DNA of 54,053 nucleotides, from the IMG/VR virus record IMGVR_UViG_3300037961_003327, positions 1 through 54,053 of that record, one strand, 5' to 3'. The stretch comes from a virus. The notes beneath the pieces are model-generated. The model saw only the letters and a program-made list of their open reading frames with translations. It was not told the origin of the DNA and searched no databases. A program made the position numbers and the translations under genes. The first letter of the stretch is position 1. Every line of letters begins with the position of its first letter. Positions 1 through 20,456 of the stretch are shown piece by piece.

Positions 1-967
1 CAGCATCGTAGTTAAAGGCTGTCGTGTCCATGCACCCCCAGGTGTGAAGCGTGATGCAGTCTCCTGGCTCCGTAGCGTTTGGGTTGTAGTCAACGTAATC
101 GTCATCCATGCAGCCAACTACTGGAGGATCGACAGGGCAAGGGTCTACGAAAACAGCCCCTGAGTAGGCCACCAGTCCGTCACCCTCTGCAAAGGCGATA
201 TCCTCAAGCTCCCACACAACAGAGTCGTTGCATGCCGTGATTACTACACCGCCATCGGCGATACCGCCAGTCGCGCTTCCGTTTAGTCCGTCTCCGTATG
301 TGTCTGTAAGGATGAGCTCAAAGCCCAGCGAAACACAGAAGTCATAGGTGTACGTAGCTAGTTGATCCCCGAAGTTAAACTGTCCTGGAAACACCTGCTC
401 GTAGAACTGACCTACAGCCAAGTCTACTAGTGTAAAACCAGTCTCGTTGGGCCAGTTATCTAGCGTCAGCTCCATAGATACGAACGCTTCACCCTCTGGG
501 CATTCGCTTACATTGCATGTGCCGTTATCCTCTGTAGCCCATGGGTTGTAGTTGTTGGATGATTCATCCATACACCCAGGAATTGGCAGCTCACAAGGCA
601 CAAGCGTAAACGGAACGTTGAGCTCAGACCCTCCGAAGTCGTACACAGCTGTATCGAGGCCGCAGTTGTTGGTTAGGCTAAACCAGCCCTCACCAAAACC
701 ACAACAGATTCCGTCTCCAAACGAATCGTAGATTACAAACTCGTAATCTCCAGGAGGTAGAATCACCATGCTGTTAAAGAGATTGTTGCCGAAGTATCCA
801 CCAGGCGATGCAGCTACTACGGCTGGACCTGCTGGCAGGTTGGGATTGTATATCTCCCAAGTAGTTTCATTACCATATTGGTCTGTAAAAACAGATACGT
901 TTACCCAACCAGGCTGAGCAAACGCATAAATCGGTAATAACAATAAAAACAGTGTAAGTCTTACCAT
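1..967 (-). CDS. Secreted Cys-rich 'GCMD' module protein (3' end cut by window edge)
   Basis: Open frame from ATG at 967 running off the left edge (322 codons visible). The product starts with a clear signal peptide (MVRLTLFLLLLPIYAFAQ, cleavage near residue 18). Two segments carry the pattern D-x-x/Y-GDG (DSFGDGICCGFGEG and DTYGDGLNG). Three modules begin GCMD and are followed by NYNP or similar, then A-T and a Cys (GCMDESSNNYNPWAT; GCMDDDYVDYNPNAT; GCMDTTAFNYDA). Such modules are common in secreted and surface proteins of marine Bacteroidota, so export across the host inner membrane is likely. The exact function is unknown; adhesion, envelope change or receptor masking are options. The ATG overlaps the stop of the upstream gene by 7 nt, so it is in the late operon. 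The C-terminus is not visible. Confidence 0.8.
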   Translation of the reverse strand, partial: MVRLTLFLLLLPIYAFAQPGWVNVSVFTDQYGNETTWEIYNPNLPAGPAVVAASPGGYFGNNLFNSMVILPPGDYEFVIYDSFGDGICCGFGEGWFSLTNNCGLDTAVYDFGGSELNVPFTLVPCELPIPGCMDESSNNYNPWATEDNGTCNVSECPEGEAFVSMELTLDNWPNETGFTLVDLAVGQFYEQVFPGQFNFGDQLATYTYDFCVSLGFELILTDTYGDGLNGSATGGIADGGVVITACNDSVVWELEDIAFAEGDGLVAYSGAVFVDPCPVDPPVVGCMDDDYVDYNPNATEPGDCITLHTWGCMDTTAFNYDA

Positions 968-2317: not shown

Positions 2318-4558
2318 TTATGCAAGGTCAATGTAATCTTGTGATGGTGAGAAAAAGACTTTGTTGTCGGCGAGGCAGTGTCCGACAACGCGAACAAAAT
2401 CAGCGCTATCGCTAGGCTGAGTACTAGAAATCTGACCCGTCGCAGAATGACTTATGTAAAGAATATCGCCAGCAGATCCAGGATCATGATTGAGATAGCC
2501 TACCCCGTGTACAAGCATGCCATTTGTAGTAGAGTTGCTACCTAAAGCCATAGCTAGTAACCCTTTTGTTTTTGCTTCGTCGTTAGCATCCACCTCAACC
2601 CATGTTCCACTACTAAATGTGTATACTTTTCCTGCGGTAGTGGAGTCGTTTCCAAACTTAACTATAGTCCCCTCAGCCTCTCCAGCAGCGTTAACCGCTG
2701 AAGTCTGTGTTACAAATTCGCTTTCAGTTCCGTCAACATTTCCAGACAGGTTTCCAGAAAATACGGTAGCTGAAACAGTGCCTGAAGAAGGGTTGTATGT
2801 TAAATCACCGTCTGCTTCTAACCCTACGTTACCGCTGCCTGCTGCCCCAGCAACAAAGGTTATTACGTTTTCTTCGTCAGTGCTTTCATTGTCCGTAACT
2901 GTAACGGTAGTAGCAATAGCAGCCGTGCCAGAGGTGTTCTGGTTCCCTGCGCTATTTACGCCTGGAAGATCTATGTTGCCTGAACCGTCAAAGCTAACAC
3001 CCCCAATGTTTACAGCGGAAGCTAAAGCCGATGCTGTATCAGCGTTGCCTTCAAGAGCTCCGTCAAACTTAGTCGCCTCTATTTCACCTGAGGCTTTCAT
3101 AGTGATTCCGTCTCCGCCGCTAACTCTGAAGATGATTTGGTTATCAGTACCAAACTTGATTCTGTTGTCGGCGTCTCTACCAATTTCTAAGCTAGAGTTT
3201 ACTACGGAGGTGATGCCTGTTTGTGCGGCCTCTACATTTAGAGTTACGCTACCCGAACTACCTCCACCAGAAAGACCAGTGCCTGCGGTAACACCTTCAA
3301 TATCTCCGCTACCACCGCCTCCACCACCTGCGGCAGCAATAGTAATTCCACCGTCGGAGTTTGTAATGGTGATGTTGCTACCAGCCGTAAGGGTACCAAC
3401 TGCTGGACCGCTACTACCGCCTATAAGTAACGATCCGTCTGTAGTCATAGCGGCAGCAGCTAGCGTATCCGTTCCGCTATCCTGAGTAATAATTACAGCC
3501 TTGTCTGTAAACGAAGTTGCGTTGGTTCCGCCCTTTGAAACTGGTACAGTATCAGTCAAGGTAGACCCAGCAGCGGGAACAGTAATTGCAGCGGTCCCGT
3601 CAAAATCCACGCCATTGATTGCTCTTGCTGTGGCAAGTGCTGTAGCTGTACCAGCGTTGCCAGAAGTATTCAAGTCAGAGGCAACCACAAAATCCATATT
3701 GCCATTAGCATCATCATAAGTAACGGCAATGCCTGTTTTTGTTCCGCCAGTAGCGACTAAGGGTCCAGCTATATCTTGGACTTGCTCAGTAGAGAGCTGA
3801 GTATTAGTGTCTGTAGACGCTATCGTAATATTGTCTGCATCTGTGTGAGTCAGGGTTATATTAGATCCAGCAACAAACTTGATATCGTCAGTCCCAGAAC
3901 CTGCACCACCCGTAGTGTTTCTAAGAATGATGTCATCGGAGCTATCTACAAAAGATAGAGTAGTTGTGTTTTGAGTGTTGGTGTCTGACGGCAAAGCAAC
4001 CCAGTCTAAGTTACCGCTAGCATCCGTTTGAAGCACTTTATTAGCATCACCAGAATCTACACCTGGCGGAAGTGTCAAGGTATATGTTGCTCCTGTAGAG
4101 TGAGCTGGGCTTTGGATTTTAACGCCGTGGGTGTTCTGTGAGCAATTTAACTGTATGGCCCCTGTGGTGCCGTCATCAGTCCCATCGCCCATAATCTCAA
4201 CGCACCCTGTTCCGTTGGGGTCAATCTTTACATTTCCGTTACTAGTAGATGTAGTAATCTTGCTAGACTGAACATCCAAGTCTCCACCTAGCTGAGGAGA
4301 GGTATCTAAAGAAATATCGCTTCCTCCATCAGCGCCTGCTGCTCCTGTAGCGCCTGTCGCGCCAGTTGCACCTGTAGCTCCTGTGTCGCCAGTGTCACCT
4401 TTGTCACCCTTGATTCCTTTTTCTGTTACTGTTATGGAGCTAGAAGCAGGAGGGGTAACTGTTACGGAGGTAGAAGATTCATTTACGGTAATCGTAGTGC
4501 CACCAGTTTCCGTAGTGGTGATAGAGTTTCCACCGCTAGAAGTAACTGTTATAGCCAT
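2318..4558 (-). CDS. Long tail fibre protein with collagen-like segment
   Basis: 746 residues. After a Thr/Ser-rich N-terminal region (1-45), residues 48-79 form a collagen-like Gly-x-y run (GDKGDTGDTGATGATG...), which should fold as a trimeric triple helix. The rest is a repetitive beta-rich shaft with the T4 gp37-like unit A-x-INGV-x-FDG-x-x-x-I (INGVDFDGTAAITV; IGGVSFDGSGNIDL). The C-terminus (GLLAMALGS..., GDILYISHSATGQIS) is typical of phage fibre ends. It starts 1 nt after the upstream Ig-like gene and is followed by the discoidin-like protein. Probably a trimeric fibre that positions the receptor-binding protein. Confidence 0.85.
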   Translation of the reverse strand: MAITVTSSGGNSITTTETGGTTITVNESSTSVTVTPPASSSITVTEKGIKGDKGDTGDTGATGATGATGATGAAGADGGSDISLDTSPQLGGDLDVQSSKITTSTSNGNVKIDPNGTGCVEIMGDGTDDGTTGAIQLNCSQNTHGVKIQSPAHSTGATYTLTLPPGVDSGDANKVLQTDASGNLDWVALPSDTNTQNTTTLSFVDSSDDIILRNTTGGAGSGTDDIKFVAGSNITLTHTDADNITIASTDTNTQLSTEQVQDIAGPLVATGGTKTGIAVTYDDANGNMDFVVASDLNTSGNAGTATALATARAINGVDFDGTAAITVPAAGSTLTDTVPVSKGGTNATSFTDKAVIITQDSGTDTLAAAAMTTDGSLLIGGSSGPAVGTLTAGSNITITNSDGGITIAAAGGGGGGSGDIEGVTAGTGLSGGGSSGSVTLNVEAAQTGITSVVNSSLEIGRDADNRIKFGTDNQIIFRVSGGDGITMKASGEIEATKFDGALEGNADTASALASAVNIGGVSFDGSGNIDLPGVNSAGNQNTSGTAAIATTVTVTDNESTDEENVITFVAGAAGSGNVGLEADGDLTYNPSSGTVSATVFSGNLSGNVDGTESEFVTQTSAVNAAGEAEGTIVKFGNDSTTAGKVYTFSSGTWVEVDANDEAKTKGLLAMALGSNSTTNGMLVHGVGYLNHDPGSAGDILYISHSATGQISSTQPSDSADFVRVVGHCLADNKVFFSPSQDYIDLA

Positions 4559-9626: not shown

Positions 9627-9639
9627 TGAATTTAATTTG

Positions 9640-9713
9640 TACACCCGACAGGATTCGAACCTGTGACCGTCTGCTTAGAAGGCAGATGCTCTATCCAACT
9701 GAGCTACGAGTGC
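9640..9713 (-). tRNA. tRNA-Arg (anticodon UCU)
   Basis: 74-nt cloverleaf on the minus strand. The acceptor stem is GCACTCG/CGGGTGT (7 bp with two G-U pairs). The D arm is GCTC-AGTTGGATA-GAGC, the anticodon stem TCTGC/GCAGA with loop CTTCTAA (anticodon TCT), and the T arm ACAGG-TTCGAAT-CCTGT. The discriminator is A and CCA is not encoded. It would read AGA codons. The stop codon of the HNH gene lies inside its 5' arm and the terminase start is 13 nt downstream, so it is embedded in the late transcript and needs processing. Confidence 0.95.
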
Positions 9714-19468: not shown

Positions 19469-19678
19469 ATGGGAAACATGAGTTATTGCCGCTTCGAAAA
19501 CACGTCAATCGATTTGGACGACTGTATCGAAGCAATTGAGAACGGAAACATTAACGAACTCAGCGTATACGAAATACGCGGGATTCTCAACCTCAGAGAT
19601 CAGGCCAAGTACATAGTAGAGCTATGGTCGGACATTGAAGAAGGAGTAAAACAATCCAAGCGGTACAATTTAGAATGA
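19469..19678 (+). CDS. 'MSYCRFENT' family small phage protein
   Basis: 69 residues from ATG 19469 (an in-frame ATG at 19442 is possible, but the conserved start MGNMSYCRFENT begins at 19469). 'MGNMSYCRFENT..DL.DC...I' is the start of a widespread small phage protein family of unknown function. The leader AAATAAGTAAACCA is A-rich. The 3' end (AATGAGAAAAATTTGGAAGT) is a near copy of the 3' end of the 19759 gene. Confidence 0.75.
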   Translation: MGNMSYCRFENTSIDLDDCIEAIENGNINELSVYEIRGILNLRDQAKYIVELWSDIEEGVKQSKRYNLE

Positions 19679-19778
19679 GAAAAATTTGGAAGTAAACAAT
19701 TCGCGTTATTAAATTAGCAACGCATCCAATGACGGGTGCAATTCAAAAACTCAAACAAATGGACAATAAAACTTACAC
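19673..19778 (+). repeat. Cassette flanks, copy 1 (no ribozyme)
   Basis: The segment starts with AATGAGAAAAATTTGGAAGT and ends with ATTCAAA...ATGGACAATAAAACTTAC. Copy 2 with the same two flanks is at 20044-20192. Between the flanks copy 1 has ~60 nt of AT-rich sequence with no visible ribozyme core. Confidence 0.65.
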
Positions 19779-20076
19779 CAAGAGAAGCCCATCGGACCTT
19801 GGGTACACAATTGGGCTACAAGATGCAATCGACGCGCTGCGAGAGGCGTTCAAAGACGCTGACACGGAGAAGACCTTTCACTATAGAAAGATAACAGACG
19901 GCGTTACGATAGGCGAAGCCTACACGCACCATCGCAGCCGTTATGAGTTCTACGACGGCAAGTGCGATGCGTACGCAGAGGCTATCAAAGCACTTAAGGC
20001 TAACCTTGAGTCGATTAACAAAGAGTACGTAGTACAATTTGAAATGAGAAAAATTTGGGAGTCTGAGGCATACTGA
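19759..20076 (+). CDS. Early protein of 105 residues; stop codon inside hammerhead ribozyme
   Basis: ATG 19759 (MDNKTYTKRSPSDLGYTIGL...). The six first residues MDNKTY, and the DNA around them, are shared with the 20175 gene although the proteins differ afterwards. Helical, mildly basic, no recognised domain. The TGA stop (20074-20076) is part of the conserved CTGATGA core of the ribozyme. Ribosomes ending here would therefore cover the core and could control self-cleavage. Confidence 0.65.
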   Translation: MDNKTYTKRSPSDLGYTIGLQDAIDALREAFKDADTEKTFHYRKITDGVTIGEAYTHHRSRYEFYDGKCDAYAEAIKALKANLESINKEYVVQFEMRKIWESEAY

Positions 20077-20192
20077 TGAGCCCTGACAGGGCGAAACTGG
20101 GCAGGAGGTCAACCATAACTCCGAGCAGACTAACCAACTGCACCCAGTCTATGTCTAATCTAAATTCAAACACTATGGACAATAAAACTTAC
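20044..20192 (+). repeat. Cassette flanks, copy 2 (holds the hammerhead ribozyme)
   Basis: Left flank AATGAGAAAAATTTGGGAGT and right flank ATTCAAACACT-ATGGACAATAAAACTTAC repeat those of copy 1 at 19673-19778. The ribozyme occupies the space between the flanks, as though inserted in this copy or lost from the other. Confidence 0.65.
20067..20155 (+). ncRNA. Hammerhead ribozyme, type I topology
   Basis: All core elements are present. Stem I is GGCATA (20067-20072) with TATGTC (20150-20155). The core is CTGATGA (20073-20079). Stem II is GCCCT-GAC-AGGGC (20080-20092), followed by GAAA (20093-20096). Stem III is ACTGGG (20096-20101) with CCCAGT (20143-20148), including the A15.1-U16.1 pair. Cleavage would follow C20149 in GTC. 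The end of stem III branches: GGAG/CTCC (20104-20107/20119-20122) and CAG/CTG (20126-20128/20138-20140). Cleavage would separate the mRNA of the 19759 gene from that of the 20175 gene, leaving a 25-nt leader with 5'-OH on the latter. Confidence 0.9.
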
Positions 20193-20456
20193 AACGGTTG
20201 GTTCAACTACGCAACGTGGAGAATCAACTTAGAGATTTTCGACGGCTTCGATGCTGAAGATCACTACGGGATTGATTCGGATTGTGATGCTTACGATTTG
20301 GGTCAGCATCTAAAGGACTACGCGGAATCGATAATTGAAATTGACGTCCCTTCTAAATCGTTGGCGTTATCGTATGCTTACGCCTTTATGCAAGATGTGA
20401 ATTGGTCAGAGATTGCGCAACACATGATTGACGAAATAAAAGAAAACGAAGAATAA
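20175..20456 (+). CDS. Early acidic protein 'GWFNYATWRINLE' family
   Basis: 93 residues from ATG 20175. The frame is open back to 20076, but that part is ribozyme sequence. MDNKTYNGWFNYATWRINLE is a start seen in small phage/plasmid proteins ('NYETWNVALWI' type, often linked to antirestriction operons). Very acidic (GFDAEDHYGIDSDCDAYD). DNA mimicry or host-protein binding is possible but not shown. Its mRNA 5' end is probably made by the hammerhead cleavage. Confidence 0.65.
   Translation: MDNKTYNGWFNYATWRINLEIFDGFDAEDHYGIDSDCDAYDLGQHLKDYAESIIEIDVPSKSLALSYAYAFMQDVNWSEIAQHMIDEIKENEE

Follow-up and report, generated by a model that had tools for sequence, protein, structure and literature searches.

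The DNA analysed here, referred to in the following as the window, comprises all 54,053 nucleotides of the IMG/VR record IMGVR_UViG_3300037961_003327. The record represents a tailed phage; most of its terminase relatives infect Flavobacterium or Cellulophaga, and many bear podovirus-type names. It is an uncultured phage of the Bacteroidota type. Its late genes are located on the minus strand, and a tRNA-Arg (TCT) gene (9639–9713, minus strand) is found among them, beside the terminase ORF. The plus strand between 17.7 and 29 kb carries small ORFs and the genes for a C-5 DNA methylase, a ParB-like protein, an exonuclease VIII-like protein and a primase/helicase. Given this gene content, the early-gene setting that a preliminary description had assumed for the locus is a fair reading, and the locus adjoins recombination and replication genes. 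The block from 23.4 to 29 kb is conserved in the same order in related phages, whereas the block from 17 to 23 kb, which contains the element described below, mostly is not.

Within this variable block, two small ORFs follow each other on the plus strand, and the gap between them is filled by a sequence with all parts of a type I hammerhead ribozyme (Table 1). The preliminary description had placed the ribozyme between the two genes, which is not strictly correct: the upstream ORF extends across the 5' half of the stem I pairing (20067–20072) into the core, where the first UGA serves as its stop codon. On the other side, the start codon of the downstream ORF lies on the same strand, 25 nt after the predicted cut.

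Table 1. Positions of the ribozyme, its parts and the adjoining genes in the window
Feature	Position	Strand	Details
Upstream ORF, 105 aa	19759–20076	+	No Pfam match; ends inside the ribozyme core
31 nt block	20032–20062	+	Near-identical repeat, with few mismatches, ahead of the upstream gene at 19663–19693
Complete type I hammerhead ribozyme, stem I open	20066–20156	+	Sequence, MFE fold, descriptor, covariance-model core match
Stem I, 5' strand GGCAUA	20067–20072	+	Pairs with UAUGUC (20150–20155); 6 bp, one G-U
Catalytic core CUGAUGA	20073–20079	+	First UGA (20074–20076) is the upstream ORF stop
Stem II	20080–20092	+	GCCC/GGGC with loop UGACA, or 5 bp with loop GAC
Core G12 A13 A14 (GAA)	20093–20095	+	Sequence
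Stem III, 6 bp	20096–20148	+	ACUGGG (20096–20101) with CCCAGU (20143–20148), including A15.1-U16.1
C17, predicted cleavage 3' of this base (20149/20150)	20149	+	GUC triplet
Stem I, 3' strand UAUGUC(U)	20150–20156	+	First bases of the predicted 5'-OH product; sequence, fold
A/U-rich leader, 25 nt, left before the downstream start after cleavage	20150–20174	+	Sequence
Downstream ORF, 93 aa, DUF7249 (PF23907)	20175–20456	+	33.9 bits, cut-off 27

The two genes resemble each other at their 5' ends. Besides the repeated 31 nt block, they have the first 19 nt of their coding sequences in common (19759–19777 and 20175–20193, ATGGACAATAAAACTTACA). The interiors of the two leaders differ, the first featuring a 6 bp hairpin and the second the hammerhead, and this combination of common outer blocks with different insides suggests an exchange of sequence blocks. 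In the preceding leader (19694–19758), no second ribozyme was found, neither as an Rfam match at E-values up to 5 nor as a match to the hammerhead descriptor. A scan limited to promoters of the sigma-70 type, as distinct from the Bacteroidota type, found none between the genes and fewer in the region than in shuffles. No orthologues of the flanking genes were detected in viral contigs or phage records, nor was one of the downstream gene in 35 related records; consequently, no position-by-position orthologue of the element is available for alignment. We also considered a regulatory N-terminal extension of the downstream protein, as the AUG at 20076 within the core opens a frame that continues into this gene. 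This looks like chance: a comparable open frame occurs in 9 of 74 elements among the viral matches listed, and the frames are spread across all three.

Fold of the element and its standing against chance

Written out, the plus-strand RNA from 20066 to 20156 reads AGGCAUA CUGAUGA GCCCUGACAGGGC GAA ACUGGG...CCCAGU C/UAUGUCU, where the slash marks the predicted cut. The three signature motifs are all present, namely CUGAUGA, GAAA (if the first base of stem III is included) and the cleavage triplet GUC (G20147-U20148-C20149), and a seventh pair, A20066-U20156, may be added to stem I. Both RNA ends enter via stem I while stems II and III are closed, which is the type I topology. In unconstrained folding of 20060–20162, the MFE and centroid structures correspond exactly to the hammerhead, with all three stems and predicted pair probabilities of 0.76–0.99. 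The distal end of stem III is branched in this fold and forms two hairpins of 4 bp each (20104–20122 and 20125–20141).

Some predictions carry less information. The folding energy of 20060–20162 is not unusual (shuffle z = −0.93, not significant), and we leave it out of the evidence because folding energy is no test for a hammerhead. The predicted probability of stem I falls from about 0.7–0.9 to less than 0.1 once ~45 nt from the beginning of the downstream gene are added. This drop says little, since low values are common across the whole viral set described below, and the energy models used ignore tertiary contacts; a weakening of stem I by downstream gene sequence would favour co-transcriptional cutting. 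As regards a tertiary contact between loop II and the stem I region, Watson-Crick pairing of the loop with the flank, as in a pseudoknot, was not above permuted controls.

The element clearly stands out from chance. A strict descriptor with the exact core, at least 6 bp in stem I, 5 bp in stem II and 6 bp in stem III finds this one site in 54 kb and none in 400 dinucleotide shuffles, searched on both strands. A much looser descriptor still returns one site in the window, compared with two in the 400 shuffles.

The Rfam covariance search proposed in the preliminary description gave no match to the element at curated thresholds, a result that is uninformative as Rfam misses comparable phage elements: in 20 comparable viral loci, its thresholds report only one among dozens of descriptor-complete hammerheads. 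The miss thus reflects the sensitivity of Rfam. At low stringency, RF00008 (Hammerhead_3) matches the 5' half only, with 23.4 of the 48.5 bits required, and RF03152 (RAGATH-1 hammerhead) matches the full length (20047–20154) with 14.4 of 56.3 bits, while RF00163 (Hammerhead_1) was not listed at any threshold used. We therefore built a covariance model from 29 viral type I elements, leaving out the copy in the window. It matches the window from 20067 onwards (26.7 bits, E = 2.6e-7) and correctly aligns the 5' strand of stem I, the core, stem II and GAAAC, but it misplaces the 3' end because stem III has 53 nt here and 14 in the model. The assignment of the 3' end accordingly rests on pairing and on the free fold, not on the covariance model.

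Related elements in phages and other viral contigs

Pattern scans of viral contigs for the core and a generic stem II yielded at least 128 usable matches, which are a sample. These were picked without regard to stems I and III. Within stem II, the pattern leaves a single pair unspecified; this pair forms in all 128 of the matches listed, and 71 of the 128 complete a type I fold, compared with 0.3% when the flanks are shuffled. In an alignment of 29 elements of equal length, every pair is kept and 12 of the 15 pairs have changed on both sides; the 131 double-change cells lie far above shuffled and slid controls, although the rows were picked by a pairing descriptor and the alignment therefore leans towards structure. 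The compensatory stem changes for which the preliminary description had suggested looking are thus found in related viral elements.

The element in the window conforms to this set in its details. Its loop II, UGACA, matches the common pattern U-N-A-N-U/A, and it has the A directly 5' of stem I that is 85% conserved among the matches listed. It departs from the set in stem III, which is 53 nt long as opposed to a median of 16 nt among the viral matches listed. We found no relative with the same stem III, and the other members with a long one are unrelated to it in sequence and mostly form plain hairpins. As stem length varies freely in the group, the branched end is probably a tolerated extension. 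With its fold, the shuffles, the relatives and the covariation in agreement, the complete type I hammerhead claimed at the outset is borne out: 20066–20156 is a genuine-looking and ordinary member of this type.

Closer to the phage itself, a terminase search returned 80 close relatives, 35 of which were searched whole for hammerheads. Five of these (G014, G016, G020, G027 and G028), all with a terminase identity of 79% or more, contain one or two type I elements each. These are located 20–30 nt before ATGs on one strand and, where paired, 235–373 nt apart. One related element (L223) has a stem I identical to that in the window (GGCATA/TATGTC). No hammerhead was found in G001, the record with the most similar terminase (91%), which implies that the element is optional or dispensable in this group.

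The placement of such elements relative to genes was examined in a sample of at least 121 distinct viral type I elements, with kin counted separately. Among the matches listed, an ORF begins with an ATG 10–49 nt past the cut in 76% of the 121, compared with 20% at random positions and 7% on the opposite strand, and in about half of the type I elements the start lies 20–29 nt after the cut. The element in the window, with its ATG at 20175, shows the same arrangement. Upstream genes tend to end close by as well: in 54 of the 86 start-proximal elements listed (63%), a stop codon lies no more than 20 nt from stem I or inside stem I or the core. It precedes stem I by 0–20 nt in 23 and falls inside stem I in 18; in the remaining 13 it is the core's first UGA, an arrangement that the window shares. 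Where a locus has several hammerheads, up to six in number, all are on one strand (32 of 32 such loci among the matches listed). L031, L053 and L076, for instance, are phage contigs that each carry five or six hammerheads, all on the same strand and within a stretch of about 2–5 kb.

A probable role in the processing of early messages

Intercistronic mRNA processing, with the cut setting the 5' end of the second mRNA as the preliminary description proposed, is the most likely role of the element and fits the placement seen here and in about 120 related elements. Judging from the sequence, we are fairly confident that it acts in cis as a type I hammerhead in an early polycistronic message and that the predicted cut yields separate mRNAs. 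The ribozyme would fold as the RNA polymerase passes and cut the nascent message after C20149. The upstream message would then carry the stem II/III structure and a 2',3'-cyclic phosphate at its 3' end and would keep its stop codon, because the core of a type I element lies 5' of the cut. The downstream message would begin with a 5'-OH and a leader of 25 nt, followed by the AUG at 20175. 5'-OH ends generally shield RNA from 5'-monophosphate-dependent decay, and the likely benefit of the cut would be that stability and translation of the two messages become separate.

It is also conceivable, though rather improbable in our view, that the element cleaves only incidentally and is a passenger without regulatory benefit, moving along with small accessory genes or shared recombination blocks. 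The variability of the early region, the lack of the element in G001 and the consecutive leaders that are alike outside and unlike inside, with a hammerhead in only one, would all agree with this, as would two contigs, L005 and L006, in which a nearly identical hammerhead stands ahead of different genes. Against it stand the strong preference in strand and position and the compensatory changes in the stems, which point to selection on a cut before start codons. The long stem III with its two hairpins further brings to mind a regulated switch, in which the branched end would bind a protein or a small molecule and control cleavage on behalf of the DUF7249 gene; regulation has been suggested as one possible role of hammerheads (PMC3088659). 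With no counterpart of this stem III among the relatives, mostly plain hairpins in the other long ones, and a stem III length that is generally free in hammerheads, we judge such a switch to be very unlikely. Equally little, or even less, speaks for an inactive relic or a chance look-alike without cleavage. The failure to reach the Rfam thresholds and the possible competing fold with downstream sequence might be read in this way, but neither the core nor any stem has a defective base, the shuffles produced no such site, and similar elements are intact in relatives.

Processing of the early message, as favoured here, could be part of something broader. Type I hammerheads, for the most part missed by Rfam, might widely punctuate early phage operons, each sitting immediately between one stop codon and the next start, keeping or supplying the upstream stop codon and giving every gene its own message with a short 5'-OH leader, with the branched stem III tuning the cut in the present case. 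We put this forward as a speculative extension that is rather unlikely.

The underlying idea has precedents. Perreault et al. (2011) reported prophage hammerheads that cluster around single genes, demonstrated cleavage in vitro for three tandem sets and in E. coli for one, and already proposed the processing of long phage RNAs into single-gene mRNAs (PMC3088659); a 2017 review still counts the function of hammerheads in prokaryotes among the open questions and points to their link with phages (PMC6155905). Like these prophage sets, the elements considered here adjoin single phage genes, and some phages have several of them in one region. The tested elements, however, came from Clostridium, Azorhizobium and Agrobacterium and included other types, whereas the window has just one element, of type I, whose stem III is branched and whose core includes the upstream stop. 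HHphage of the haloviruses HF1 and HF2, which are lytic, similarly lies 13 nt before the start of an early gene, but it is a variant hammerhead, found in an archaeal virus and followed by a helicase gene (PMC3088659); the element in the window has a standard core and is followed by a DUF7249 gene. Among the Rfam families, it shares the open stem I, the closed stems II and III and the core with RF00163 (Hammerhead_1), differing in its long, branched stem III. Its alignment to RF03152 (RAGATH-1) extends over stem I, core, stem III and the GUC triplet, but the element does not form the additional 5' hairpin of that consensus. As far as the open-access literature goes, what is new here is the quantified placement, the strand bias, the frequent overlap with upstream stop codons and the extent of the Rfam misses. 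Since Rfam thresholds miss nearly all such elements, phage genomes are under-annotated for hammerheads, and the sharp, strand-specific placement makes the idea of mRNA processing directly testable by mapping of 5'-OH ends.

The scans also brought up elements of other kinds. The core pattern occurs in at least 118 stretches of bacterial and archaeal genomes. In several viral loci (L023, L032, L045, L059, L084, L108, L113 and others), core matches without a type I fold are soon followed by an ATG after the GAAAC strand; these may represent hammerheads of type II or III that precede start codons. A separate type I group (L015, L017, L055, L061, L075 and L099) is marked by an invariant stem I (CTGTCT/AGACAG), and its cut sites are not directly followed by any obvious start codon. 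In L087, two hammerheads stand back to back at 4219 and 4272 (plus strand), the second with a stem III of 112 nt, and a third follows about 540 nt further on. Finally, a pistol ribozyme (RF02679, 71.7 bits; 532–596, minus strand) and a type I hammerhead lie about 900 nt apart on the viral contig L005.
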